Source: an uncultured Clostridia bacterium
GTDB taxonomy: Bacteria; Bacillota; Clostridia; Christensenellales; Aristaeellaceae
Assembly (NCBI GenBank): GCA_946615495.1
Contig: CAMOHY010000002.1
Coordinates: 1-32,871 of the forward strand
DNA: 32,871 nucleotides
Direction of reading: 5' to 3'
Shown: one piece after another, positions 3,414 through 31,538 of the stretch
Layout of the letters: the number at the start of each line of letters is the position of its first letter
How positions within the stretch are numbered: position 1 is the stretch's first letter
Notes under the pieces: generated by a model
Told to the model about the DNA's origin: nothing
What the model saw: the letters and a program-made list of their open reading frames with translations, nothing else
The model's database searches: none
Position numbers and translations under genes: made by a program

Positions 3414-4862
3414 TTATTGCCATTCCACCTTGGCGTAATTGCTGCTGGGCGTTAAATCGTACACCACCCGGCACACGTTCTTCTGGTCCCTGAGAATCAG
3501 GTCCACCACGTTTTCCATGGCGTCGTAGGGCAGGCGGGCGGCGTAGGCCTGGCTGCGCTCGCTGGCGTGCACCGCCCGCAGGATGACGACGGATTTTTCC
3601 TCATCCCCCGGCAGCGGCAAAAGCAGGGCAAAATACTGCCACAGGCGCTTCACCGCCGGCGTATGCTGCATTTCCGTGCGGAACACGGCGTCCGCCGCCC
3701 GCAGGGTTTCCAGCCTTTCCTCCGTTACTTCGCCCAGGATGCGCAGGGCCAGGCCGCTGCCAGGGAAAGGCTGGCGGGAGATCAGATCGGACGGCAATCC
3801 CAAATAATCCCCGATTCGCCGGATTTCATCCTTGAACAGCTCCCGCACCGGCTCAATCACCGGGGCGCCGCCCAGGGCGGGCTGGGTGGCGCTGTTGCCG
3901 AACATCACGTCGTTATAGGTCGTGCCCCGGATGAGCGCGCTGATGGGCCCGATTTTTTCTTCCTCTTCCCGCAGAATCCGGCGGATAAGGCTGCCAATGA
4001 CCCGCCGCTTTTCCTCCGCGTCCCGCACGCCCCGCAGGGCTTCAAGAAACCGGGCCTGAGCGTCCACCCGGATAATATCCATGCCGATGGAATCCCGGTA
4101 GAAGGCGATAAAATCGTCCCCCTCCCGCTCCCGCAGCAATCCGGTATCCACAAATATACATTTGAGCTGGCTTCCCAGCGCCTTGAAGGCCAGCAGGGCG
4201 CTGACGCCGCTGTCCAGCCCGCCCGTCATGGCGCATACGGCCCGGCCGCCGCCCACCACCCGGCGGATTTCCTCCACCGCGCGGGTGACAAAGGCGTCGT
4301 CGTCCCACCAGGCGGTGCAGCCGCATATATTCAAGGCAAAATTCCGCAGTATCTGGGAGCCGTCCGGGTCGTTTTGCTCCAGCTGCAATTGAACGCCAAA
4401 AAGCGGCAGGCTGTCGTGGGCAAAGCCGATCACCGCGTCCTGGGCGCTGCACAGCGCGTCCACATGCTCCGGCAGGTGGAATTCCCGCACGCAGGCCAGC
4501 ATTCTTTCCCCGTCATCAATGCCCTCCAGCAAGGGGGACTGCCGGTAGGAAACGGGCATGACCGCGCTTTGGAACACGATGTCCCCCGCGCTGCCGGACA
4601 AAAGGCTCAGCATCAGCCCCGCCGCGTCGCCCAGCGCCAGCACGGGCATGCCGGACTGAAGGATGCGCTCATCCAGCCCGGAGGGATTCCTGCCCTCCGC
4701 GCCTCCGGCCAGCAGCAGGCCCAAAGGCTCCTGCGCCTGAACCTCCTCCAGGGAAGTCTGGCCCGGAACGATTTTACACAGCACGCGCTCAGAACGCAGC
4801 TTGCGCGTCACAGCCCGGCTGGCCGCATCGTCAAAATTCAGCACCAGTACCATATCGCGCAC
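3414..4862 (-). CDS. GMP synthase-like protein with an inactive amidotransferase domain
   Basis: A 482-residue protein with GuaA order: glutamine amidotransferase fold (about 1-185), ATP pyrophosphatase (about 186-370) and dimerisation domain (371-482). The ATP loop is kept as TGGLDSGV (213-220), followed by CIFVDTGLLRERE, and RQPFPGSGLALRILGEVTEE and LPYD are also conserved. The glutaminase site is lost: the nucleophile elbow GxCxG reads ALGDA (Cys to Gly78 in my alignment), and FHPE reads LQLE (159-162). The usual YPD and SHHNVGGLP segments are replaced by YND and ATQPALGGAP, and the C-terminal KPPATIEWE by SSNYAKVEWQ. A GTG at 4862 is chosen because GGAAGGAG lies about ten bases before it; an ATG at 4853 is the alternative. 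It may use free ammonia, another substrate, or be non-enzymatic. Confidence 0.85.
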   Translation of the reverse strand: MRDMVLVLNFDDAASRAVTRKLRSERVLCKIVPGQTSLEEVQAQEPLGLLLAGGAEGRNPSGLDERILQSGMPVLALGDAAGLMLSLLSGSAGDIVFQSAVMPVSYRQSPLLEGIDDGERMLACVREFHLPEHVDALCSAQDAVIGFAHDSLPLFGVQLQLEQNDPDGSQILRNFALNICGCTAWWDDDAFVTRAVEEIRRVVGGGRAVCAMTGGLDSGVSALLAFKALGSQLKCIFVDTGLLREREGDDFIAFYRDSIGMDIIRVDAQARFLEALRGVRDAEEKRRVIGSLIRRILREEEEKIGPISALIRGTTYNDVMFGNSATQPALGGAPVIEPVRELFKDEIRRIGDYLGLPSDLISRQPFPGSGLALRILGEVTEERLETLRAADAVFRTEMQHTPAVKRLWQYFALLLPLPGDEEKSVVILRAVHASERSQAYAARLPYDAMENVVDLILRDQKNVCRVVYDLTPSSNYAKVEWQ

Positions 4863-4956: not shown

Positions 4957-5910
4957 TCAATTTTCCTGTGCTTCTCTTTCCCGCGCTTCTTCTATCATAC
5001 GCCGCAGGGCCTGGCGTGTTTCCAGGTTGGCGATGCCGTTTTGCGCAATGCCAAAGCGGCGCTGCACCGTCTTGACGCACTCGGTGGTGATGGCCCCGTA
5101 CTTGCCGGTGGTATACCTTTCCTCCAGCAGCCCGGCCTGCACCAATTCCCTTTGCAGTTCCACCACCTTGGGCCCTTCATGGCCGAATTTCAGGGTGATA
5201 TCCGCCAGGTCATACACGGTGCCGTAGCCCAGAATGCGCCAGTAATCCAGGGCGTAGCTGTTGCGCTCCACGCTCTGGGGCGCGGGCTTGGTCACGTTGT
5301 TGCCTTCAATGACGTGCACGCGCACCTTGCCCTGTTCATCGTATGCGCAGTATTCCACCATGGCCACGTGGCTGGTGTCGCCGCTGGAATTGTCGGTCAA
5401 AAACACCCAATCGCCCGGCTGGGGGATATAGCTGTTTTTTTCCACCGCCTGGCCGCTTTCCTTCCACCATTGGCTGCCGTAGCCCGGCACCACGCCGATG
5501 CGGGCCACATAGCGCCCCTGGGAAAGAAACCAATCCCGGCCCACGTTGGTGCCGCTGTAATTGGGGTACACGCGGTTCAGCAGCCGGATGCCGTGCTGCT
5601 TATCCACTTGGTTCACGCACCAGCACTGAAACTCCGCGCACCATTCCGCGGTGGGATAGCCCGCCCAGGTGCCGTATTTGGTCACGCCGCTTCTTTCCTC
5701 CGTGTAGCCGATTTCCTGCCGGGCCGTATCCAGCAGCCACAGCACATAATCCGGCACGGCGTACCGCGGCAGAATCAGGGTTTCCCCCTCCTCCAGCGAA
5801 ACGCCCGCTTCATAGGCGGAAAAGCTTTTCCCTTCCTCCGCCCGCGCCAGGGCGGGCAAAAGCAGCGCCAGGCAAAGGGCCAGCGCCGTCCATTTCTGTT
5901 TCCGTTCCAT
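4957..5910 (-). CDS. Secreted CHAP-domain peptidoglycan hydrolase with a peptidoglycan-binding domain
   Basis: A 317-residue protein with a signal peptide (MERKQKWTALALCLALLLPA, likely cut after LARA). A CHAP domain spans about residues 55-230, with the expected Cys91 in EWCAEFQCWC, His181 in TSHVAMVE and Asn204/205 in IEGNN; GDWVFLTD precedes the His strand. A peptidoglycan-binding (PGBD) domain covers about 240-305, with KVVELQRELVQAGLL and YGAITTECVKTVQRRFG. Such proteins cut the stem or cross-bridge peptides of the cell wall, or the amide to muramic acid. The ATG at 5910 is chosen because GGAGGGG lies about ten bases before it; a GTG at 5919 would be too close. It directly follows the giant surface protein gene (104 bases) and may help place that protein through the wall. 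Confidence 0.88.
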   Translation of the reverse strand: MERKQKWTALALCLALLLPALARAEEGKSFSAYEAGVSLEEGETLILPRYAVPDYVLWLLDTARQEIGYTEERSGVTKYGTWAGYPTAEWCAEFQCWCVNQVDKQHGIRLLNRVYPNYSGTNVGRDWFLSQGRYVARIGVVPGYGSQWWKESGQAVEKNSYIPQPGDWVFLTDNSSGDTSHVAMVEYCAYDEQGKVRVHVIEGNNVTKPAPQSVERNSYALDYWRILGYGTVYDLADITLKFGHEGPKVVELQRELVQAGLLEERYTTGKYGAITTECVKTVQRRFGIAQNGIANLETRQALRRMIEEAREREAQEN

Positions 5911-6014: not shown

Positions 6015-9000
6015 TCAGGCGTTGCCGCCCTCGCCGTTATCGTCATAAAGGTCCTTGTTCCGTTCCGTGCGGCGCACGCGCTTGCGCGCAGGAGCCTGGG
6101 GAGCCTCCGGCTCCGCCGGGAAATCCTCCAGGTCCAGCTTGGCTACCTTGATATTCAGGTTGAGCCGCTGGGCGTTGGGGTCCACGGGCGCGGGCTTGAA
6201 GGCCTGGGTATCGCTGGCCAGGGCGTCCATATCCTCCTTGGTCATTCCATTGAACAGCGATTGATTGCCGTACACCTGGGTCTGCTGCAAGGGCTGATAG
6301 ACGTTATTCTGCCGCCGGGGCTGATAGGCCTGGGTTTCCTGCCGCACAGGCTGGAAGGCCTGGGTTTCGCCCGCGCCGGGCTGAGCCTGCGGGGGTTGCT
6401 GGGCAGGCTGCGCAGTCCTGGGCCGGTACACGCCGGTGTTTTGGATGTTTGCGGCGGCGGTGGGCCGGGGCGACGCGCCCTGGGGCGGCATGAACGGCGC
6501 GGACTGGTTGGGATAGGACGCGCGGTTCACGCCCTGATTGGGATTATTCTGAGCCGCCCGCATATGAGGCTGCTGCGCCGCCGCGCTGCGGGCCTGACGC
6601 GCCTGCTGGGCGCGCTGGGCCTGACGCCGCTTTTCGGTTTGCTTGCGCACGGTGTAAGCGTAGTAAGCGCCGCCGCCGCCCAGCACGGCCAATCCCAGCA
6701 GCACCCACGGCCAGGGCGAGCCGCCCTGCTGCACGTTGGTTTCCGGCTGAACGGGATTATCCTGGGGCCCCACGGGAGCAATTTCCGGGGTGGGGCTGGG
6801 GGTCGCAGTCGGAACGGGCGTTTCGGTGGGCAGGCGTTCCGGGTCGGGCGTAGGCGTTACGAAGGGATTAAAGGGCTCGTAGGACGCGCTGAGCGCCGGG
6901 TTTTGCCACACCGTCTGGTTGTAATCCTCCACCGGCTGAATCTGGCTGCTGGTAGCGCCGGAGGAGGTGTTGTTGCTGTTTGCGTTTAAGTACTCGCTGC
7001 TCTGCAGGAAGGTGGAAAGCTCGCCCAGCGGCAGCACACGGAAGTAATCGCTGCGGATATAGCCTTCGTTGCCGCCCTGGCTCACATGGTACCAGGTGCC
7101 CTCGTCGTTGGTGACGGTGCCCAGCACCAGGGCGAACGCGTAATTATCCAGCAGGCGGATGGCGTTGTCCTTTTTCGTGGTAGGCTCGGACCGCAGGTTC
7201 ACCCGGCCGCTGTTGCTCTGCACATGGCCGTAGCTGCTCAGGCTTTCCTGGGTCAAGGGTTCGGGCGTGGGGGCGGGAGAGGGCGTAGGCGTGCCGCCCA
7301 TCAGGCTTTCTTCGTAGGCGGCCACCTCCTCCTGGCTCATCATGCGCAGCTGGTCCTGGCGGATATAGCCCCACATGCCGTTATACTGCACCAAATGCCA
7401 GGCCGCGTTGCCCGCGTACTGCTGGCCGCGCACATTGGCCACGGCCATATAGGGAAGCAGCATGATGATTTCGCCGTTGGTATCCGGGAAATTGCGCATG
7501 GGCACGCCTTCGCCCAAGGTCATAGCGTAGCCCTCGGCCTGCTCCGGCACGGCGGTGGCGGTGGCAGCCGGCGTGGTCTGAATCTGCTCCAGATAGGGCC
7601 GGGCCTCCTCGCTGGTGATGGACTGGATGGAGGATTGCAGGATAAAGCCCAAATTGCCGCTGCTCACGGACTGAACGAAGGCCCAGGGCACATTGTCCAC
7701 ATAGGTCTGGCTCTGCACGAAAAGCAGGGAATCGGGAGGCAGCATTTCCAAAATGGTATCGTCGGTCTGGCTCACGCCGGTGCGCAAGGCCGCCTGGCCG
7801 CTGGTGAGGGCATAGCCCTTATAGGGCAGGGGCGTTTCGGTGGGCGCCTCGGTGGGAATCAGGGTGGGTTCGGCGGTGGGCTCCTGGGTGGGCTCCTGCG
7901 TAGGTTCCGCAGTGGGCTCCTGGGTGGGCTCCTGGGTGGGTTCCGCAGTGGGCGCCTGGGTGGCGGCGGGCTGCTGGGTGGGCATGGGCGAGGAAAGCTG
8001 CGCCTGAATTTCTTCGCTTTCCGCTTCGCTGGCCACCTCCACGTAATCGGCCATCAGGAAGCCGTCGGTGCCGCTGACGCGGACGGAGTACCACTTTTCG
8101 CCGTTGATGGTCTGGGAGGAGAAAACCCATACGCGGGTGTTCTTCTTCAATTCGGAAATTCTCTCCCCGCTGCGGTCCGCGCTCCTGCGGAAATTCACCG
8201 CCGCGGTGGTCTTGGCCCAGCGGTCAATGGGCGCGCCGTCGGGAATGGCGGTGGGCGCTGCCGTGGGCTCCTGGGTGGGGGCCATGGTGTAGCCGAACAG
8301 GGCGGCCAATTCCGCTTCATTCAGGAAGCGCACCACGGATTCGTTCATGTAGCCCATCACGCCGTTGATCTCCACGGCGTACCATACCTTGCCGTCGCTG
8401 ACCAGCTGGCCCAGGGCGTGGCCCAGGTCGCCGCTGTTGGCCATGCCCACGATGTTGTCCTCCGCCGTGGTGGGGGTGGAGCGCACGCGCACGCCGGTGC
8501 CGGTGGGATAGAAATAGGCGTCCAGGGCCGTTTCAAAGGTAGGAGGCTGGGGAGCGGGGGTGGCGGTGGCCAGGGATACATACCGGAACACCACGGTATC
8601 CGGGGTCAGCTGGCCGTTTTCATTCAGGAACACATTGGCGCTTCCGCTGCCCTCCAGGGTATAGTTTTCTTCCAGGTTATCGGGCCGGGCGTCGATGGTG
8701 TTGCTGCCCACATAGCACAAATACTGCTGGGGAGAGGCCACCTCCCGCCCGGTTTGGGCGTCCTGATAGAGAACGGTTACATAGCCGTTCACTTCGTTGC
8801 GGAATTTGAACACCACTTCGGCGGGCTCGGCGTTGCCGTTGCTGTCCACCGTCACATCCACTTCCGCCTCGGAGGCCAATTCATATCCCAGGGTAGAATC
8901 CACCTGGTCCCAATCCAGCCGCACGGTGTTCTTCTGGCCCTCCACGCAGGTGGCCGTATAGGAATAGAAAGCTTCGCCGTCCGGATTCACATATTTTACG

Positions 9001-11768
9001 TTGACCAGCGCCACCTTGGGCGCGGGCGCTTCGGGGGCGTAGCGGTAGGTGAACACGGCATCCACGGGGAAAGCGCCGAATTCATCCACGTGCACGCTCA
9101 CGCTGTCCGGGCCGGTGAGCTGCCAATCCGCCTGCAAATCGGCAGGATCGGGGAAAATTACGCTGTCGCCCGGCTCGCACCACACCTGGGTGGGAGAGGC
9201 CACGTCGTTGCCCTCCTGGTCCACATATTTCACGTTGACCAGCGCCGGCTGGATCACCGGGGCTTCGGTGGGCGCTTCGGTGGGTTCCTGGGTGGGTTCC
9301 TCCGTCGGTTCTTCCGTCGGCTCCTGCGTGGGCTCCTCCGTCGGTTCTTCCGTCGGCTCCTGGGTAGGCTCCTCCGTCGGCGCTTCGGCAGACTGCGTGT
9401 AACGGTACAGGAACACGATCTCCGTCACGTCGCAGTGGCCCGCGGCGTCCACGAATACCTCCACCGTAGGTTCGCTGACCAGCACGTAATTTTCCAGCAG
9501 GTCATAGGGCTCGGCGCTGACGGAGGTGGTCACCCCCGCCTCCGCCCGGATGGAGCCGGCGGTGGCCACGTCCATGCCGCTTTCCTCATCCAAATAGCGG
9601 ATGGGCAGCGTTACCGGACCGGCGATGCGGTATTCATAAACAAAGGTAATTTCGCTGGGATGGGCGCCGTCGGCGTCCACCGTCACATCCTGGAAGGCGG
9701 GGCTGCCCTCGATCAGAACGTAGTTTTCCGGCAGGTCCTGAGGCTGGGGGAAGACCACGAAGCTGCCCCCCTCCAGGGTCTGCTGGGTATCGGCGGCCAA
9801 AGCGCTGCCCTGGGCGTCGGTGTAGTGCACGGTCACGGCGGCGGGCTTCACCCTGCGGTTGTACACGAAGGTGACTTCGCTGACGCTGCCGCCGTCCAGG
9901 CTCACGGTCAAGGGATAGGAAACGGGCTGGGAAAGCTCATAATCCTCCGCGGAAATGGGGGCGTTGGGCAAAATCTCATGGTCCCCTTCCCCAAAGGTCT
10001 GCACGGTGTCGGCGGCGATGGTTTCGCCCCGCTCGTCCACGTAATGAATGGTCACATCCACCGGCTGCACCAGCCGCTGGTAGGTAAAGGTGATTTCGGC
10101 GGGGTTGGCCCCGTTCACATCCACGATCACGGCCACGGCGCCCTCGGAGGTGAGCGCGTACTCATCCTGGGGAATCAAGTCCTCCGGCCCCACCTGGCGG
10201 ATGCCGGGCTCCACGGTAACGAAGGAATCGGGCGCGATGGACGTGCCCGTTTCATCCACATAATGCAGCGTCACCACGGCGGCCTTGGCCACCCGCTGAT
10301 AGGTGAAGGTAACCTCCGCGGGGGACGCGCCTTCGGCGGTGACATACACTTCATAAGAGGAAGGCCCGGTGATGAGGTATTCATCCGGCGCGATGGCCGC
10401 GGCGGGATACACAATGTTGGAGCCGGGCTGGGCGATAAACGCCGTGTCCTGGGCCAGGGGCGCGCCGTTTTCATCCACGTAGTGCAGCGGAATTTCCACC
10501 GGCAGCACCTGGAGCTTATACAGGAAGGTGATTTCGCTGGGCACAGCGCCGTCCAGCGTCACGTTCACGGGCAGGGAATCCGGCCCGTCCAGGGCGTAGC
10601 GGTCAATGGTTTCGGCATACAGGGTATGGGCGCCGCCCTCCAGGGTGAGCTGGGCGTCGGGCAAAAGGGAAGCGCCGTTTTCGTCCACATAGTGCACCGT
10701 CACAGTGGCCGGAGGCACATAGCGGGTATAGGTAAAGGTGATTTCGCTGGGCGCAGCGCCGTTTTCATCCACGGTGACCAGAACGGTGGTGCTGCCCGAA
10801 GCGGTATACTGGTCAATATTGGCGGCGCTGACGGGATGTTCGCCCGCGTCAAAGGTATAAATCACATCGTTAAGCAGCGGCAGGCCGTTTTCATCCACAT
10901 AGTGCACCGTCACGTTGGCGGAGGAAACCAGGCGGGAATACACAAAGGTCACTTCATTGGGCAGGGCCCCGGAGGCGTCCACGATGATCTGATATTCCTC
11001 CATGCCCTGCAGGGTGTAGCCCTCCAGCGCCGGGGCGCTGACGGTGGAAGCGCCCTCCTGGAAGGAAAGCACCTGGTCCGCCATCAGGGGGATACCGTTT
11101 ACATCCGTGTAATGCACCGTCACATCGGCGGAAACCTGGGCCCGGAGATAGGCAAAGGTGATATCGCTGGGGAAAGCGCCGGAGGCGTCCACGGTAACGG
11201 AAAAAGCGCCGGGGCTGAACAGCTCATAGCCGGGAATTTGCTCCGCGGAAACGGTGTGCACGCCCTCCTCCAGGGTGAGCACCCGGTCCTCCAGCAGCAT
11301 TTGGCCGTATTCATCGGTATAATGCACCGTCACCTGAGCGGGCTGGGGCGCGGCGTCCTGCAAGGGAGAGTAAGACAAATACAGGTAATAAACGCCCTGG
11401 TATTCCCCATTGGCGTTAAAAGCGTGAATTTCCACGGGCACAGCGTTCAGGCTGCCCATAGCGTCCTGAACATTCGCAAGGGTTTCCCCCTGGCCGGGCA
11501 TAAAGCTGCTCAGGCCGCCGGTCAGGTCGCTGATATTCAGGGTCAGGCCGTCCAGCGGCGCGTCTAAGGGCAGGGTGATCCAAAAGCGGTTTTCGCCCAT
11601 ATCGGCGGATACGGGCACGGCCATATCGCTCAGGCGCACATTGCCCACGCCGTCCGTCCACTGCACAGAAATACTCATATCCTGCGCGCTGGCAGCCAGC
11701 GCGCCTACTGGCAGCATCAGCCAGGAAAGAACCAGGAGCCAGGCAACAAAGCGGTTGATTCCCTTCAT
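6015..11768 (-). CDS. Giant surface protein: MucBP-like repeats, SH3-like repeats, one membrane segment, cytoplasmic tail
   Basis: A 1,917-residue protein. After a signal peptide (MKGINRFVAWLLVLSWLMLP, likely cut after ALA) and an N-terminal beta domain, nine MucBP-like repeats of about 70 residues cover roughly 145-795. Each opens like VTVHYVDENG and ends like PSEITFTY. An EPT-rich linker (about 796-840) leads to three more repeats (about 842-1065). Five SH3-like repeats follow (about 1075-1580), separated by a second EPT linker (about 1258-1308); VNLRSEPT, WYHVS and GYIRSDYF are typical SH3b wording. A membrane helix lies at about 1684-1706, then a positive stop (RKQTEKRRQAQR) and a 211-residue Gln/Pro-rich tail. 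There is no LPXTG anchor. MucBP repeats suggest host glycoprotein or fibre contact, and SH3b repeats suggest wall binding. The ATG at 11768 has GGAGG before it; longer readings start inside the promoter. Confidence 0.9.
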   Translation of the reverse strand: MKGINRFVAWLLVLSWLMLPVGALAASAQDMSISVQWTDGVGNVRLSDMAVPVSADMGENRFWITLPLDAPLDGLTLNISDLTGGLSSFMPGQGETLANVQDAMGSLNAVPVEIHAFNANGEYQGVYYLYLSYSPLQDAAPQPAQVTVHYTDEYGQMLLEDRVLTLEEGVHTVSAEQIPGYELFSPGAFSVTVDASGAFPSDITFAYLRAQVSADVTVHYTDVNGIPLMADQVLSFQEGASTVSAPALEGYTLQGMEEYQIIVDASGALPNEVTFVYSRLVSSANVTVHYVDENGLPLLNDVIYTFDAGEHPVSAANIDQYTASGSTTVLVTVDENGAAPSEITFTYTRYVPPATVTVHYVDENGASLLPDAQLTLEGGAHTLYAETIDRYALDGPDSLPVNVTLDGAVPSEITFLYKLQVLPVEIPLHYVDENGAPLAQDTAFIAQPGSNIVYPAAAIAPDEYLITGPSSYEVYVTAEGASPAEVTFTYQRVAKAAVVTLHYVDETGTSIAPDSFVTVEPGIRQVGPEDLIPQDEYALTSEGAVAVIVDVNGANPAEITFTYQRLVQPVDVTIHYVDERGETIAADTVQTFGEGDHEILPNAPISAEDYELSQPVSYPLTVSLDGGSVSEVTFVYNRRVKPAAVTVHYTDAQGSALAADTQQTLEGGSFVVFPQPQDLPENYVLIEGSPAFQDVTVDADGAHPSEITFVYEYRIAGPVTLPIRYLDEESGMDVATAGSIRAEAGVTTSVSAEPYDLLENYVLVSEPTVEVFVDAAGHCDVTEIVFLYRYTQSAEAPTEEPTQEPTEEPTEEPTQEPTEEPTEEPTQEPTEAPTEAPVIQPALVNVKYVDQEGNDVASPTQVWCEPGDSVIFPDPADLQADWQLTGPDSVSVHVDEFGAFPVDAVFTYRYAPEAPAPKVALVNVKYVNPDGEAFYSYTATCVEGQKNTVRLDWDQVDSTLGYELASEAEVDVTVDSNGNAEPAEVVFKFRNEVNGYVTVLYQDAQTGREVASPQQYLCYVGSNTIDARPDNLEENYTLEGSGSANVFLNENGQLTPDTVVFRYVSLATATPAPQPPTFETALDAYFYPTGTGVRVRSTPTTAEDNIVGMANSGDLGHALGQLVSDGKVWYAVEINGVMGYMNESVVRFLNEAELAALFGYTMAPTQEPTAAPTAIPDGAPIDRWAKTTAAVNFRRSADRSGERISELKKNTRVWVFSSQTINGEKWYSVRVSGTDGFLMADYVEVASEAESEEIQAQLSSPMPTQQPAATQAPTAEPTQEPTQEPTAEPTQEPTQEPTAEPTLIPTEAPTETPLPYKGYALTSGQAALRTGVSQTDDTILEMLPPDSLLFVQSQTYVDNVPWAFVQSVSSGNLGFILQSSIQSITSEEARPYLEQIQTTPAATATAVPEQAEGYAMTLGEGVPMRNFPDTNGEIIMLLPYMAVANVRGQQYAGNAAWHLVQYNGMWGYIRQDQLRMMSQEEVAAYEESLMGGTPTPSPAPTPEPLTQESLSSYGHVQSNSGRVNLRSEPTTKKDNAIRLLDNYAFALVLGTVTNDEGTWYHVSQGGNEGYIRSDYFRVLPLGELSTFLQSSEYLNANSNNTSSGATSSQIQPVEDYNQTVWQNPALSASYEPFNPFVTPTPDPERLPTETPVPTATPSPTPEIAPVGPQDNPVQPETNVQQGGSPWPWVLLGLAVLGGGGAYYAYTVRKQTEKRRQAQRAQQARQARSAAAQQPHMRAAQNNPNQGVNRASYPNQSAPFMPPQGASPRPTAAANIQNTGVYRPRTAQPAQQPPQAQPGAGETQAFQPVRQETQAYQPRRQNNVYQPLQQTQVYGNQSLFNGMTKEDMDALASDTQAFKPAPVDPNAQRLNLNIKVAKLDLEDFPAEPEAPQAPARKRVRRTERNKDLYDDNGEGGNA
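7838..7969 (-). repeat. Imperfect short tandem repeats coding for an EPT/APT linker
   Basis: A run of near-identical 12-base units (plus strand: gtgggctcct, gtgggttccg) encodes PTQEPTAEPT-type repeats between the second and third SH3-like domains. Such a tract can expand or contract by slippage. Confidence 0.8.
9262..9384 (-). repeat. Imperfect short tandem repeats coding for an EPT linker
   Basis: Twelve-base units (plus strand variants of tccgtcggttct and gggtgggttcc) encode EEPTQEPTEEPT-type repeats between MucBP-like repeats nine and ten. They are coding and in frame, with no unique spacers, so this is not a CRISPR array. Confidence 0.8.
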
Positions 11769-11820: not shown

Positions 11821-11849
11821 ATTGTATTACAAAACTTTAACAATGTCAA
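11821..11849 (-). promoter_or_regulatory. Strong promoter of the surface protein gene
   Basis: On the minus strand a perfect TTGACA (11844-11849) and TACAAT (11821-11826) are 17 bases apart. The surrounding sequence is AT-rich in a GC-rich region. The start codon lies about 50 bases downstream, behind GGAGG. Confidence 0.85.
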
Positions 11850-25484: not shown

Positions 25485-27050
25485 ATGAAAAAGGCCTTGT
25501 CTATGCTGCTTGTGCTGTGCATGCTGCTTGCGGCGCTTCCCACTGCGCTGGCGGAGAATCCCTCCACCTGGCTGTGCGATACGCTGACGGAAATCACCAT
25601 CATGCGCGGCGAAAACGCCATGCAGCCCATCAAAACCGATACCCTGAAATTGCAGACCATTGAAGAATTGCTCAATGTGAAGCTGGTTGTGGAAGCGCCT
25701 CCCGCCGCCAGCTACAACGACCAGAAGAGCACCCGCATCGCCTCCGACGATATGCCGGACATCATGCTGGTGAGCACCTCCGACGTGCGCACCTATGCCC
25801 GCGACGATATGTTCGTCAACCTGTCCGAGCATCGGGACGAATTGCCCCACCTCTTTGCCCTGCTGGACGCCAACGAAAGCCTGGGCATGCTCACCGTGGA
25901 CGGCGATTTCTACAGCGCTCCCACCCTGCAGCGGGATAACCCCGACCTGCGCCGCTCCGGCAGCCTGCTGAACTTCCGCACGGACCTGCTGGCAAAGTAC
26001 GGCCTGGAAGTGCCCGCCACCTTTGAGGATTTGTATCAGGCCATGAAGACTATCAAGGAAAACGAGCCCGACATGGTGGGCCTGACCTGCCGCAGCGGGA
26101 CCCGCAAGTTCATGGACCGCGTGGCGTATCCTCTGGGCGCCGGCTCCGCCATGTACTATGACGCCGATCAGGGCGGCAAGTGGGTTTACGGCCCCGCCAG
26201 CGAAAACTTCAAGCTGGTGCTGGAATACCTGAACAAGCTCTATTCCGAAGGCCTGCTGGACGCCGACTACGCCACCAACTCCAAGGATCAGTGGGCTGAA
26301 AAGCTGTCCAACGGCACCGCCATGGCTACCATTGACAACGATGGCGTGGTGCGCAATTACAACGCCGCCCTGGCCGCCGTTGATCCCTCCTTCAAGCTGG
26401 AAGTGATCCCCGTTCCCGTCAACGCCCTGGGCGAACAGCGCATTGAATTCTACGATAAGAACTGGACCGACCAGAACTGGGTCATCGCCACCTCCAGCGA
26501 CAAGATCGACCTGTGCCTCAAGTTCCTGGATTGGTGCTATTCCGACGAAGGCGCCCTGACCAACGGCTACGGCAAGGAAGGCGTGTCCTACGACCTCGTG
26601 GACGGCAATCCCATCGTGAAGCCCGAACTGCTGGAGCAGTACGCCGCCAACGCCGCCAACGCTTCCTATGATATCCAGACCGCGCTGGGCGTAGGCCTCA
26701 ACGACGTATCCCCCTATGTGGACGCCGGCTGCCAGTACCAGATGGAAATCTACCTGATGGGCGATGAGGAAGCCCAGGCCGCCTACCGCGAAATGGTGGC
26801 CGGTATCGCCACCATGCCCGGCACCCGCGAGCCCGTTATCACCCCGCCCCTCACCGAAGAGCAGACCGAACGCTACAACGAACTGCTGCTCGCCGTTGAA
26901 AACCTGGTCTACCAGGAAGTGGACAAGTACATCACCGGTGAAGAGCCCCTGGAAAATTACGATAAGGTGATCGAGGCCGCCAAGGCCGCCGGCGCCACCG
27001 AAATGGAAGAAATCTACAACGCTGCCTGGAACGCTGCCCTGGGCAAGTAA
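25485..27050 (+). CDS. Extracellular sugar-binding protein, LipO/family 1 type
   Basis: A 521-residue solute-binding protein. The signal peptide is MKKALSMLLVLCMLLAALPT followed by ALA, with a probable signal peptidase I cut before ENPST. The mature part has the LipO-type order: LKLQTIEELLNVKLVVEAPP, SDDMPDIMLV, NFRTDLLAKYGLEVPATFED, and LCLKFLDWCYSDEGALTNGYG. The only cysteine in the signal sequence (Cys12, in LVLC) is inside the hydrophobic core and does not fit a lipobox, so lipid anchoring is not evident. It captures the oligosaccharide for the two permeases. AAGGAGGA precedes the ATG. A perfect hairpin lies just after the stop. Confidence 0.92.
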   Translation: MKKALSMLLVLCMLLAALPTALAENPSTWLCDTLTEITIMRGENAMQPIKTDTLKLQTIEELLNVKLVVEAPPAASYNDQKSTRIASDDMPDIMLVSTSDVRTYARDDMFVNLSEHRDELPHLFALLDANESLGMLTVDGDFYSAPTLQRDNPDLRRSGSLLNFRTDLLAKYGLEVPATFEDLYQAMKTIKENEPDMVGLTCRSGTRKFMDRVAYPLGAGSAMYYDADQGGKWVYGPASENFKLVLEYLNKLYSEGLLDADYATNSKDQWAEKLSNGTAMATIDNDGVVRNYNAALAAVDPSFKLEVIPVPVNALGEQRIEFYDKNWTDQNWVIATSSDKIDLCLKFLDWCYSDEGALTNGYGKEGVSYDLVDGNPIVKPELLEQYAANAANASYDIQTALGVGLNDVSPYVDAGCQYQMEIYLMGDEEAQAAYREMVAGIATMPGTREPVITPPLTEEQTERYNELLLAVENLVYQEVDKYITGEEPLENYDKVIEAAKAAGATEMEEIYNAAWNAALGK

Positions 27051-27070
27051 GCCTCGCAGAATATATGAGG

Positions 27071-27098
27071 GGGCGGCTCTGCTTTCGCAGAGCCGCCC
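27071..27098 (+). other. Perfect hairpin after the binding-protein gene
   Basis: GGGCGGCTCTGC (27071-27082) pairs with GCAGAGCCGCCC (27087-27098) around TTTC. No T run follows. In ABC operons such a hairpin often protects the binding-protein mRNA from decay so that it is made in excess; partial termination is also possible. Confidence 0.6.
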
Positions 27099-27163
27099 GA
27101 CTGTCGGCAAACCCCAGGAAAGTATGAAAAGGCCGCAGCCCTTTCATCAACAATCCGCAGGAC

Positions 27164-27211
27164 CGGCTTTGCCATCGAAAGCCTGAAAGCAGCCTTTCGA
27201 TGGCAAAGCCG
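27164..27211 (+). other. 18-base-pair perfect hairpin in the leader of the GH106-like gene
   Basis: The arms at 27164-27181 and 27194-27211 (CGGCTTTGCCATCGAAAG and its exact complement) enclose a 12-base loop. The stem ends 19 bases before the GGAGG of the next gene and has no T run. It could limit ribosome access or mark a processing site. Confidence 0.65.
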
Positions 27212-27245
27212 TCTCCCATTTCAAGGAAACGGAGGTAACGCGTTT

Positions 27246-29750
27246 ATGGGTGAAAACCGTCATCTGCTGCCCTTCCTGTGGCTGCACGGGGAGGATGATG
27301 AAACGCTGCGCCGGGGCGTAAGGGAAATTGCCCAGTCCGGCTGCGGCGCGCTGTGCGCCGAATCCCGCACCCATCCGGATTTTCTGGGGCCCTCCTGGTG
27401 GCATGAAATGGGCGTGCTGCTGGACGCCTGCAAGGAATGGGGCATGAAATTTTATCTGCTGGACGACGTGCATTTTCCCTCCGGCACCGCCAACGGCGTG
27501 GCCGCCGGCACGCCCTGGCAGCGGATGATGATGAAGGAAACCCATGTGGACGTGAAGGGCCCCCGGAAGGGCGGGCGGCTGCTGGCGTGGCCCGATGGGA
27601 TGAAGGCCATGCCGGTGGCGGTGGTGGCCGGGCGCAAGCTTACAAGCGGCAACCGGGTGGAAAGCTTTGTGGACCTGGGCGGCTTTGCCGTTTCCGATTT
27701 GACGGACCTGACGGACCGGGTGCGGGACGGCCTGCTTGCCTGGGATGTGCCGGAGGGCGATTGGCGCGTTTTCCTGCTCACGGCGGAATACGTCAGCGAG
27801 CGCAACCCGCCCCAGCAGTTTTTAAATCCTCTTCTGCCCGACGCGGGCCGCCTGATGATTGAAACGGTGTACCAGCCCCACGCGGAGTTTTTCGGGGCCG
27901 AGGCGGGCAATACGTTTTTGGGCTTTTTCTCCGATGAGCCTGCCCTGCGGGCGGGCCGGGGCTCCCACGCCGTGCTGGGCGAATTTCCCCAATTGCCCAT
28001 TCCCTGGCGGCTGGATATGCCGGAAATTCTGTCGCAAAGGCTGGGGCAAAACGCCCGCGCCCTCCTGCCCGGCTTATGGTACGATATTGGGCGGGAAACG
28101 CACCGCGTCCGCTACGCCCTCATGGACACAGTGAGCGAGCTGTACGGCAAAAATTATTCCCAGCCCATCGGCGCCTGGTGCCGGGAGCGGGGCCTGGAAT
28201 ACATTGGCCATGTAATTGAGCAGAACAACGCCCACAGCCGCCTGGGCCAAGGCGCGGGCCACTTTTTCCGCGCCATCAGCGGGCAGACCATGGCGGGCAT
28301 GGACTTTGTGCTCCATGAGCTTAAACCGGAATTTTACGGCGGGCACCACGCCTGGCACTCCCAGGATTTTGAGGCGGAGGACGATTTTTTCCGCTTCATG
28401 CTGCCGCAGATGACCCTGTCCGCCGCCGCCCTGGACCCCAACAAGCGCGGCCGCGCCCTGTGCGAAATCTTCGGGGCCTACGGCTGGCAGGAGGACGTGG
28501 GCGAAATGCGGTATCTGGCCCATCTGCTTTTATCCAGGGGCATCAACTACTTTACGCCCCACGCCTTTTCCTTAAAGCCCGCCCCGGACCCGGATTCGCC
28601 CCCTCACTTTGGGGATATTCATCCGCTGGCGTTCTTTATCGCCCGGCTGTTTGGGCAAATGGAGCGCACGGCGGCCCTCATTGACGGCGGAAGCCACGCA
28701 GCCCCCGTGGGCGTGCTGTACTACGCCGAGGGCGAATGGGGCAGCGGCAGCGGCGTAATGAAGACCCAGCGCATCGTGCGCGCCTTGAACGAAAAGCAGA
28801 TGGAATGCGAAGTGGCGCCCATTGACCTGCTGGCGCCGGGGCGCTATGAGGCCCTGCTCATTCCCGCCTCCCCCCGGTGGCCCGAAAAGCTGTTTGAAAA
28901 GCTTTCGGCGCTTCGCGCCGGGGGCTGCCGCGTGGCCTTTGTGGACGCCCTTCCCTCCGGCTACTGCGACCGGGAAGGCGTGCCGCCCCAGGAATATGAG
29001 GTGGTGCCGCTGTCCGGCGCCGCCGCCTGGTGCGCTTCTATCGTGTCCCCGGCGGTTTCGCCGTTTTCGGACGCGCCGCTCATCCACGCCTATCCCTACG
29101 ATGGGCCAAAGGGCAGGCTGGTGCTGTTTTTTAACGAAAGCGACCGGGAAACGCTCTCCTTTTCCGGCCTGGTGCGGGGCGTTTCCTCCCCTGTGCTTTA
29201 CGATCCGGAGGCCGGCGACTGCTTCCTGCCGGAGGGAAAAGAAACGGCGGAGGGCTTTGCCCTCACCCTGACCCTGGACCCTGGGCAATTGCTAATTTTC
29301 TCCTCCCCCAACGCTTCCTGGCCCGCCGCCCGGCCCAAGGCCGCGCTCAAGCCGGGCGAAGCCCTGTCCCCCCGCTGGCGCGTTTCCTTCCCTCAGGACA
29401 GCGCCATGGCCGCCTTTGAAACGGACGCGCCCTTTGATTTAACCTCCCGCTGGCCCCGGTTTTCCGGCACTGCCCGGTATGAAGCGGAGGCGGACCTGCC
29501 CGCGGCGGAGGGGCTGTTGCTTGATCCCATGTACGGCGCGGTGCGCCTGTGGGTGGATGGAAGGGAAGCGGGCGTGCGCGTATCCCCGCCCTACCGTTTT
29601 CCCGTAACCATTCCCGCGGGGCGGCATCTGCTCCGCATCGAATGCACCAACGCCCCTGTTTTCCGCTGGCGGGACCCCTTGTCCGTTCACGGCTGGCTGC
29701 CGCCCACGGGCCTTACCGGCCCCATCCGCCTCATGCAAAGGGAGAAATGA
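27246..29750 (+). CDS. GH106-like glycoside hydrolase, probable alpha-L-rhamnosidase relative
   Basis: An 834-residue cytoplasmic protein (no signal peptide). The N-terminal barrel resembles GH106 and related families: LLPFLWLHGEDDETLRRGV, then GPSWWHEMGVLLDACKEWGM, KFYLLDDVHFPSGTANG, FLGFFSDEPALRAG, and GHVIEQNNAHSRLGQG. A middle part (about 485-690) holds a Rossmann-like segment with VGVLYYAEGEWG and ALLIPASPRWPEK. The C-terminus (about 715-834) looks like a galactose-binding sandwich, ending in GRHLLRIECTNAP. GH106 enzymes remove alpha-L-rhamnose, but I could not assign catalytic residues, and the protein is shorter than the 900-1,100 residues I recall for the family. The start follows GGAGG. 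The next gene begins three bases after the stop. Confidence 0.68.
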   Translation: MGENRHLLPFLWLHGEDDETLRRGVREIAQSGCGALCAESRTHPDFLGPSWWHEMGVLLDACKEWGMKFYLLDDVHFPSGTANGVAAGTPWQRMMMKETHVDVKGPRKGGRLLAWPDGMKAMPVAVVAGRKLTSGNRVESFVDLGGFAVSDLTDLTDRVRDGLLAWDVPEGDWRVFLLTAEYVSERNPPQQFLNPLLPDAGRLMIETVYQPHAEFFGAEAGNTFLGFFSDEPALRAGRGSHAVLGEFPQLPIPWRLDMPEILSQRLGQNARALLPGLWYDIGRETHRVRYALMDTVSELYGKNYSQPIGAWCRERGLEYIGHVIEQNNAHSRLGQGAGHFFRAISGQTMAGMDFVLHELKPEFYGGHHAWHSQDFEAEDDFFRFMLPQMTLSAAALDPNKRGRALCEIFGAYGWQEDVGEMRYLAHLLLSRGINYFTPHAFSLKPAPDPDSPPHFGDIHPLAFFIARLFGQMERTAALIDGGSHAAPVGVLYYAEGEWGSGSGVMKTQRIVRALNEKQMECEVAPIDLLAPGRYEALLIPASPRWPEKLFEKLSALRAGGCRVAFVDALPSGYCDREGVPPQEYEVVPLSGAAAWCASIVSPAVSPFSDAPLIHAYPYDGPKGRLVLFFNESDRETLSFSGLVRGVSSPVLYDPEAGDCFLPEGKETAEGFALTLTLDPGQLLIFSSPNASWPAARPKAALKPGEALSPRWRVSFPQDSAMAAFETDAPFDLTSRWPRFSGTARYEAEADLPAAEGLLLDPMYGAVRLWVDGREAGVRVSPPYRFPVTIPAGRHLLRIECTNAPVFRWRDPLSVHGWLPPTGLTGPIRLMQREK

Positions 29751-29753
29751 AGC

Positions 29754-31538
29754 ATGGAAGAAATCATTCGCGTCACCGACCGCCGCCGGGCGGACATTCG
29801 CTTTCAGGACGGCGCGCTGCCCCATCTGTGCGGCGTAAAAAGCTTCCAAATTATGCGGGCCAACCGGAAAATGCCGGAGGACGCCGAGGGCTTTGGCTGG
29901 ACCTATAACCACGCCGCCATGCTGTGCCACGCCTTCGGCCGCTTTTACTGCCAATTCCTTTCCAATCCGGTGAGCGAGCATGAAACGCCGGGCCACACCC
30001 TGCTGTGCGACAGCGAGGACGGAGCGCATTGGTCCCGTCCCCGCGTGCTGTTCCCGGAAATCGAAATCGACACCGCGCCTTATCTTGGCCCCCGCACGCC
30101 CCAGCTTCTGCCCCGGATGCTCACCGTGCCCCATCAGCGAATGGGCTTTTACATGGGGCGAAACGGCGTGCTGCTCACCCTGTCCTTTTACGGCCTGGTG
30201 CACGACCGGCATCAGAGCGCGCCCTGCGACGGCTGGGGCGTCGGCCGGGCAGCGCGCCGCATTTTCCCGGATGGCAGCCTGGGCGATATCTATTTCCTGC
30301 TCTATAATGAGCCCGCCGGCTTTACGGAAAAAAACGTGGACGCTTTCCCGCCCTATGAAAAAAGTCCGGACGGCGCCTTCGTGGACGCCTGCCGGGAGCT
30401 GCTTTCAAACGGCGCGGCCATGCGCCAAATGTACGAAGAGCAGCGGTTTGACAAAAAGCTGTTTCCCCGGCCCGGCGCCCAGGCCTTCTGCTTTTACACG
30501 GTGGAGGGGCAGCACATGGTGGGCGTTTACAAGCGAAGCCTGGCCTCCCTGTCCCACGACGGGGGCAAAACCTGGACCGACCCCGCCCCCCAGCCCTCCA
30601 TTCACACCATGACGGGCAAGGTGTGGGGCCAGCGCACCTCCGACGGGCGCTTTACCCTGATGTACAACCCCACCACCGACGGCCAGCACCGCTGGCCCAT
30701 CGCCGCCGTTACCGGGGAGGACGGGCATACCTTCTCCCATTTGTCCGCCGTCACCGGCGATATGAGCCCCCAGCGTTACGGCGGCATCGATAAAAACCTG
30801 GGCCCGCAGTACATGCGCGGCATTGCCGAGTGCAACCCCCAAACGCCGGATGGCGACGTATGGCTGGCCTACAGCAACAACAAAGAGGATATTTGGGTCA
30901 GCCGCATCCCGGTGCCGCTGAGTGCCGAGGGCTCGCGGGAGGGCAGCCTGGATTTGTCCTCCGGCTCCTTCCCCGCCGCGCTGGGCGTTTATTCTCCCGC
31001 CTGGGCCCCGGTGACGATGGAAAACGGCGCCGTAACGCTCCGGGACCGGGACCCCTACGACCGGGCCGCCGTCGAAGTGGGCGTGGGCCAGGCCGAAAGC
31101 GGCAGCGTACACGCCGCCCTGTCGGTGGACGCAGTGGCGGAATGCGGCAGCGTGACTCTGGAAATGCAGGACGACGCGGGCCGCACCCCCATTCAGCTCA
31201 TTTTCCGGCCGGACGGCAAAGTGTACCTGCGCAATGACGGCCGCATCGACCCCTGGCTTCCCTGGCGTTCCGGCGAAGTGATCCATCTGGACATTGCCTT
31301 CGACGCCGCGGCCTGCCGCACGGTTTTGACCCTGAACGGCGCAGAAAAAAAGCAGGCCTTTAACGCCAGCGTGAATGAAATCGCCCGGCTGCGCCTGCTC
31401 ACCAAGCAGCATATTCCCTGCCTTTCCACCCTGGATTCCTGCGGCAAATACGGCCAAAAGGATCAGGTGCTGCCCGGCTGCGAAGAAAAAACGGAAGAGA
31501 CCCGCGTCCGGCTGCTGGCGCTGTCCTGGAAAGGCTAA
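29754..31538 (+). CDS. Large beta-propeller protein with a C-terminal sandwich domain
   Basis: A 594-residue protein without a signal peptide. The first 400 residues look like a BNR-type propeller: one clear Asp box, LSHDGGKTWTDP, and one weak copy, CDSEDGAHWSRP. Motifs GFGWTYNHAAMLCHAFGRFY, YMGRNGVLLTLSFYG, GVGRAARRIFPDGSLGDIYF, MGFYMGRNG and GIAECNPQTPDGDVWLAYSN are distinctive, and I do not recognise a characterised family from them. Residues from about 415 resemble a LamG or GH32 C-terminal sandwich (LIFRPDGKVYLRNDGRIDPW). The ribosome site GGGAG overlaps the stop region of the previous gene, so translation is likely coupled. Sialidase-like propeller folds also occur in rhamnosidases and lyases acting on rhamnose-glucuronate caps; that link is inference. 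Confidence 0.65.
   Translation: MEEIIRVTDRRRADIRFQDGALPHLCGVKSFQIMRANRKMPEDAEGFGWTYNHAAMLCHAFGRFYCQFLSNPVSEHETPGHTLLCDSEDGAHWSRPRVLFPEIEIDTAPYLGPRTPQLLPRMLTVPHQRMGFYMGRNGVLLTLSFYGLVHDRHQSAPCDGWGVGRAARRIFPDGSLGDIYFLLYNEPAGFTEKNVDAFPPYEKSPDGAFVDACRELLSNGAAMRQMYEEQRFDKKLFPRPGAQAFCFYTVEGQHMVGVYKRSLASLSHDGGKTWTDPAPQPSIHTMTGKVWGQRTSDGRFTLMYNPTTDGQHRWPIAAVTGEDGHTFSHLSAVTGDMSPQRYGGIDKNLGPQYMRGIAECNPQTPDGDVWLAYSNNKEDIWVSRIPVPLSAEGSREGSLDLSSGSFPAALGVYSPAWAPVTMENGAVTLRDRDPYDRAAVEVGVGQAESGSVHAALSVDAVAECGSVTLEMQDDAGRTPIQLIFRPDGKVYLRNDGRIDPWLPWRSGEVIHLDIAFDAAACRTVLTLNGAEKKQAFNASVNEIARLRLLTKQHIPCLSTLDSCGKYGQKDQVLPGCEEKTEETRVRLLALSWKG

Follow-up and report, generated by a model that had tools for sequence, protein, structure and literature searches.

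Architecture and setting of the surface-protein gene

The window analysed here is a stretch of 32,871 nucleotides from an uncultured Clostridia bacterium, and the gene of interest occupies positions 6015 to 11768 on the minus strand. It encodes a bitopic surface protein of 1917 amino acids with a signal peptide, MucBP-type repeats, SH3 units, Pro/Thr linkers, a transmembrane helix and a predicted cytoplasmic tail. The ATG start codon at 11768 is preceded by the Shine-Dalgarno sequence AAGGAGG and the stop codon ends at 6015; an alternative longer frame, with a TTG start at 11849, lacks a comparable ribosome site. Comparison with Pfam identified MucBP (E = 3e-34, 118 bits in all), SH3_3 (E = 1e-19, 70.7 bits) and the PT repeat. 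About 12 MucBP-like units can be distinguished by eye, three of which pass Pfam individually, together with about five SH3 units. A literature search on the protein returned nothing relevant.

The single transmembrane helix (residues 1684-1707; 6648 to 6719, minus strand) is followed by RKQTEKRR and then by a Gln/Pro/Arg-rich tail of 210 residues (1708-1917; 6018 to 6647, minus strand) that is predicted to be disordered. The tail is predicted to be cytoplasmic because of the positive charge that follows the helix, in accordance with the positive-inside rule. An AlphaFold model of a C-terminal piece of the protein contains an SH3-like unit and a helix (residues 178-222 of the piece), while the tail has pLDDT below 50 throughout and hence no predicted fold; since the underlying alignment is shallow, with four sequences only, disorder is supported rather than proven. 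The protein thus has one helix, a folded part outside and a part inside that is disordered by this measure of low pLDDT from a shallow alignment. An earlier, sequence-only reading of the gene had described a MucBP/SH3 protein with a single helix, RKQTEKRR and a tail lying inside the cell, anchored unusually in the membrane without LPXTG, and Pfam and the sequence agree with this description: no LPxT[GASN] sorting signal is present anywhere in the 1917 residues. The protein shares its MucBP repeats, long Pro/Thr spacers and extracellular part with the MucBP/LPXTG adhesins of lactobacilli and listeriae, but differs from them in lacking LPXTG and in having a long, conserved cytoplasmic tail. It is no ordinary MucBP adhesin, but a conserved wall-to-cytoplasm protein with an array of threonine-centred linear motifs.

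To our knowledge, signalling from the wall to the cytoplasm in Gram-positive bacteria is thinly understood, and most of the known links are PASTA kinases and MapZ-like proteins. MapZ (LocZ) of Streptococcus pneumoniae is a bitopic protein, associated with the wall on the outside, whose disordered cytoplasmic domain is phosphorylated on threonine by StkP (PMC7055233). The surface protein likewise is bitopic, with its wall side outside, one helix and a cytoplasmic part predicted to be disordered. In MapZ, however, the cytoplasmic part is N-terminal rather than C-terminal and carries two phosphosites, not a repeated motif. The likeness is one of architecture only: no sequence relation is claimed, and the surface protein is not known to bind FtsZ.

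Immediately downstream lies a gene for a secreted wall hydrolase with CHAP and PG_binding_1 domains (4957 to 5910, minus strand), which is syntenic with the surface-protein gene. All the contigs of genus g1 that were examined keep the order surface protein, CHAP hydrolase, GMP-synthase-like gene, GNAT gene, as do genera g5 and g7; in g34 the CHAP gene is likewise syntenic. Co-transcription with the CHAP gene is not assumed, because the gap of about 100 bases between the two genes contains a GC-rich hairpin. The GMP-synthase-like protein (window positions 3414-4862) scores below the GuaA cut-off (347 against 400), and its gene is syntenic with that of the surface protein across genera; it is possibly not the housekeeping enzyme. 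A location within a dcw cluster, suspected from an MraW-like neighbour, was rejected, the other neighbours being MFS, GDSL, GNAT and IclR genes. Further along the window, positions 25485-31538 encode a solute-binding protein, an 834-residue protein that has no clear family assignment, and a beta-propeller, similar to BT_1020, that bears a sialidase-like CBM; they have the appearance of a locus for a plant polysaccharide of the rhamnogalacturonan type. Those relatives that carry a name are 'Clostridia bacterium' assemblies of ruminant gut origin.

A threonine-centred motif array in the tail

The tail carries five copies of a short motif, centred on T1778 (QNTGVYRP; codon 6435 to 6437), T1802 (GETQAFQP; 6363 to 6365), T1812 (QETQAYQP; 6333 to 6335), T1830 (QQTQVYGN; 6279 to 6281) and T1854 (SDTQAFKP; 6207 to 6209), all on the minus strand. 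The last four had been placed exactly by the sequence-only reading; the copy at T1778, which it missed, has a similar counterpart at the same place in congeners. The protein with its tail is present in 25 of the 29 genomes of the genus, with 2-10 copies of the motif and drifting linkers. The array is more than chance. T-x-x-[FYW] was counted 111 times in 22 congeneric tails, where 14 would be expected and no more than 25 came up in any of 300 shuffles, and T-x-x-[FY]-x-P was counted 78 times against two. Threonine stands at position -3 for 111 of the 197 tail aromatics (14 expected), while adjacent spacings are near or below chance. The motif recurs in 21 of the 23 other genera of the family from which tails were fetched; in these tails T-x-x-[FYW] was found 137 times against 39, and with proline at +5 77 times against five.

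The [DE]TQ[AV][FY] 15-mer occurs four times in the genome's own assembly (2.46 Mb, 65% complete), three of them in the tail, and once in the reversed control; a DTQVY elsewhere in this genome lies within an unrelated enzyme. Of some 50 matches to T-Q-[AVTIM]-[FY]-x-P that were opened across the 29 genomes, those outside the tail were nearly all in non-coding or unrelated frames, and the motif was accordingly rejected as a genome-wide signal. One match fell in a cytoplasmic tail of PBP1A. The acidic cytoplasmic N-terminal tails of PBP1A contain PTQAFLP, ETQVW and ETQIW at three loci (L105, L149 and L164); among the PBP1A tails of 27 congeners the other 24 do not conserve this.

The consensus that emerges is Q-x-T-x-x-[FY]-x-P, with a core of Gln at -2, Thr at 0, an aromatic residue at +3 and Pro at +5, and often Gln, Arg or Lys at +4. 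The sequence-only reading had defined the sites as acidic-TQ motifs. That a threonine motif exists is borne out, but the definition is too narrow, because the acidic residue at -1 and the glutamine at +1 are common here and not conserved: an acidic residue stands at -1 in 33 of 111 genus copies (30%) and is rare in other genera, where Gly is dominant, and Gln stands at +1 in 58 of the 111. Given [FY][RKQ]P, the residue at -3 is Thr in 118 of 142 cases and Ser in four.

Comparison of orthologues reveals how the motif is maintained. In 26 ortholog pairs, drawn from 28 proteins and hence mutually non-independent, the contrast is nevertheless large: the rate of change over aligned cells is 5% for the motif Thr and 56% for linker Thr, 4% for Gln at -2 and 39% for linker Gln, and 9% against 27% for Pro, and in 25 of the 26 pairs the motif Thr is retained more often than the other threonines of the tail. 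Tyr and Phe interchange freely at the aromatic position, whereas replacement of the motif Thr by Ser was seen once in about 218 aligned cells, compared with 40 times in about 524 for other tail threonines. Shuffles, other genera and ortholog pairs all bear out the expectation that the motifs would be kept while the linkers drift. At the level of aligned sequences, these comparisons show that Thr rather than Ser is strongly selected for at the motif centre, and the motif is kept across more than 20 genera.

Might such an array nonetheless have arisen neutrally, as repeats expanded in a tail of low complexity that is rich in Gln and Pro? Tandem duplication has clearly lengthened some tails, as is visible from three near-identical ETQVFQPS units in L018 and six QGTQQFRPP in L188. 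The motif core nonetheless persists in differing repeat contexts: the same core is found in unrelated contexts in 21 of the 23 other genera, and between orthologues its residues are conserved several-fold better than residues of the same kind in the linkers. The ortholog-pair test rejects neutral expansion, an alignment artefact excepted, and we regard it as extremely unlikely. The conserved motif is probably the site of action of a cell-wall-sensing kinase or of a partner protein.

The second of these alternatives would be docking in which phosphorylation plays no part. Each Q-x-T-x-x-[FY]-x-P copy would bind the same pocket of a candidate cytoplasmic partner, such as a scaffold, cytoskeletal or wall-synthesis protein, the Thr being required for side-chain contacts and the array conferring avidity. 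Conservation of the aromatic residue and Pro besides Thr and Gln is consistent with this, as is the lack of conservation of the acidic residue at -1, and a copy number of 2-10 with drifting linkers is as expected for avidity. In some more distant genera, moreover, the array has decayed to NPYARP-like copies from which the Thr is lost, which also favours docking. Against it, the near-absolute preference for Thr over Ser is the imprint that a phosphothreonine reader or a Thr-preferring kinase would leave, although a structural Thr could leave the same one. Docking of this kind ranks second to the kinase reading and is a serious possibility, if on balance somewhat unlikely.

Candidate kinases and readers

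The genome itself encodes a PrkC-type kinase of 570 amino acids with Pkinase and PASTA domains, adjoining a PP2C phosphatase, as the sequence-only reading had suggested might be looked for. A Pkinase match was found in 60 of 60 family genomes; since it is present in every genome checked, its ubiquity is necessary but undiscriminating. Among PASTA-kinase substrates in Firmicutes the best established is IreB/ReoM, in which Thr7 is the site phosphorylated (PMC7286690). IreB in this genus has the N-terminus MSERFETTKLRPLPEG and the phosphosite region FETTKLRPLPEG, in which ET aligns with ETVRFR of the solved IreB homologue. Its ETTKLRP (E-T-x-x-L-R-P, and more generally E-T-x-x-hydrophobic-R-P) matches the consensus spacing of the tail, exemplified by ETQAFQP, in the Thr, the hydrophobic residue at +3 and the Pro at +5, which is a resemblance only; IreB/ReoM differs in being a small soluble regulator with one or two sites, and has no homology to the surface protein. 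PknA-dependent phosphothreonines in Mycobacterium tuberculosis are enriched for a hydrophobic residue at +3 and a basic one at +4 (PMC7164672), and the OdhI/GarA site VETTSVF, within the peptide VETTSVFRADFL, contains T-x-x-F (PMC8546545). The ETTS(VF) phospho-sites of GarA/OdhI are thus alike in the Thr and the aromatic at +3, but belong to a soluble protein with an intramolecular FHA switch, whereas the surface protein has no canonical FHA partner. Because the PrkC sites of Clostridioides difficile have no specific sequence signature (PMC9674922), a likeness of this kind is weak support for a kinase.

Phosphorylation of the tail threonines is compatible with the data and is what we infer in the first place. 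The most likely reading, tentatively held and perhaps not quite an even chance, is that the tail is a multi-site target of the PASTA kinase on an envelope protein that links wall and cytoplasm. On the outside, the MucBP and SH3 units would bind the wall or surface polymers, as their families suggest; the single helix crosses the membrane; and inside, the predicted disordered tail carries the tandem Q-x-T-x-x-[FY]-[RKQ]-P array and the Arg-rich end. The motif threonines would be phosphoacceptors of the PrkC-type kinase, so that the tail, with its several sites, would report the state of the wall in a dose-like manner, while the Arg-rich end may keep the protein close to the DivIVA/FtsW-PBP machinery of wall synthesis. 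Together with the neighbouring CHAP hydrolase, the protein could couple contact with the wall, or its remodelling, to cytoplasmic control of wall synthesis. Against this PASTA-kinase reading, no more than the above 30% of genus copies have the acidic residue that such sites typically carry, Gly mostly taking its place in other genera, and Thr is lost in the NPYARP-type copies of some genera. An elaboration of it, in which the tail would be a multivalent phosphothreonine switch of 2-10 kinase sites read by a non-canonical, non-FHA phosphothreonine-binding domain new to Clostridia, we consider unlikely.

The reader originally proposed was a FHA-domain protein. FHA domains of the GarA type recognise T-x-x-F, and a conserved Thr, not Ser, with a fixed residue at +3 is found here as it is in a FHA-domain ligand; the Thr specificity of the motif is in favour of such a reader, and so is the position of a FHA protein in an operon for FtsW and a PBP, with an Arg motif at its C-terminus in common with the surface protein. 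This FHA protein, the sole one in the assembly and in its congeners, has a membrane helix, a FHA domain and a tail ending in RRRRRERRE. The search for a FHA protein in the genome was thus successful, but the protein found lacks the Arg and Ser that bind phosphothreonine. An alignment of 23 sequences (this protein and 22 homologues) has no phosphate-contacting Arg behind the conserved Gly, where Ser or Ala mostly stands instead, and has Leu, Arg, Lys, Ala or similar residues in place of the Ser of V-S-R-x-H; in alignment with Dun1, IGRSRSCD...DISTFHAEF faces IGASRECD...GIARTHARF. In control sequences, namely FHA domains belonging to other clusters in other family genera, both residues are retained (IGRDEDND...VSRHHAEI). 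The best match of the FHA protein among solved structures is KIF13B, whose FHA domain binds independently of phosphorylation. Furthermore, the FHA profile found no match in five near-complete, motif-bearing genomes (G114, 97%; G061, 97%; G060, 92%; G024, 96%; G008, 91%), a search that would have detected a canonical domain, although a diverged one might conceivably fall below its threshold. No canonical FHA reader was found to co-occur with the motif tails. Because the phosphothreonine-binding residues are lost in the genus and near-complete motif-rich genomes have no FHA match, a FHA domain is rejected as the general reader of the motif; the FHA reading is very unlikely, being largely refuted as a general mechanism, and the PASTA kinase fits better.

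In some genera of the family (L068, L069 and L263-L289), several canonical FHA domains are clustered together with kinases and with frames about 1500-1600 amino acids long; these are possibly loci for type VII secretion.

The arginine-rich end and the wall-synthesis machinery

Near its C-terminus the tail bears the basic motif ARKRVRRTERNKDLYD (residues 1894-1909; 6042 to 6089, minus strand), an instance of R-R-x-R-R-[ST]-[DE]-R, which ends the tail in most of the family. One evidently spurious frame aside, only the surface protein and the FHA protein have this motif near the C-terminus among about 2,100 frames of the fetched loci, a limited sample. The gene for the FHA protein is followed by those for a FtsW/RodA-family protein and a class B PBP in an operon (L249:2703-6188, contig 15 of the same genome). 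The layout is like that of actinobacterial FHA-RodA-PBP clusters, but with the phosphothreonine-binding residues lost genus-wide. The surface protein, which is conserved and occurs in numerous genera of this large clostridial family of the gut, thus combines a Thr-specific array under clear selection with a second motif common to a wall-synthesis operon; it offers concrete sites in T1778, T1802, T1812, T1830 and T1854, and its motif copy number differs naturally from member to member of the family.

The Arg motif resembles the Arg-rich ligands of GpsB, which in PBPs have the forms SRxxR(R/K) and (S/R)RS(R/G)(K/S)xR (PMC6335420). It might accordingly be proposed that the tail is chiefly an anchor to the divisome or elongasome, its Arg motif binding a GpsB-like groove of DivIVA and its TxxF motifs another morphogenetic protein, and that the surface protein is a functional analogue of MapZ or of Bacillus subtilis YpbE. 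YpbE, a wall-binding partner of GpsB, is similarly a single-helix protein with an Arg-rich cytoplasmic motif, but has LysM instead of MucBP/SH3, and its motif is N-terminal and membrane-proximal. The presence of the Arg motif in the FHA protein encoded beside FtsW and the PBP would suit an anchor, as would the finding of DivIVA in 28 of 29 congeners with groove-type residues kept. However, known GpsB ligands are membrane-proximal, while the motif here lies about 185 residues from the helix, and Arg-rich ends bind lipids too. A tail serving chiefly as an anchor seems quite unlikely, and the putative link to DivIVA is a resemblance of motifs. The single DivIVA of the genome (L248:223-795, contig 86) has an N-domain closest to that of GpsB among PDB sequences and keeps EKEFKT..RGY..VDEFLD, with GpsB-like groove residues; with such a groove (RGY, VDEFLD) this one DivIVA may serve both roles.
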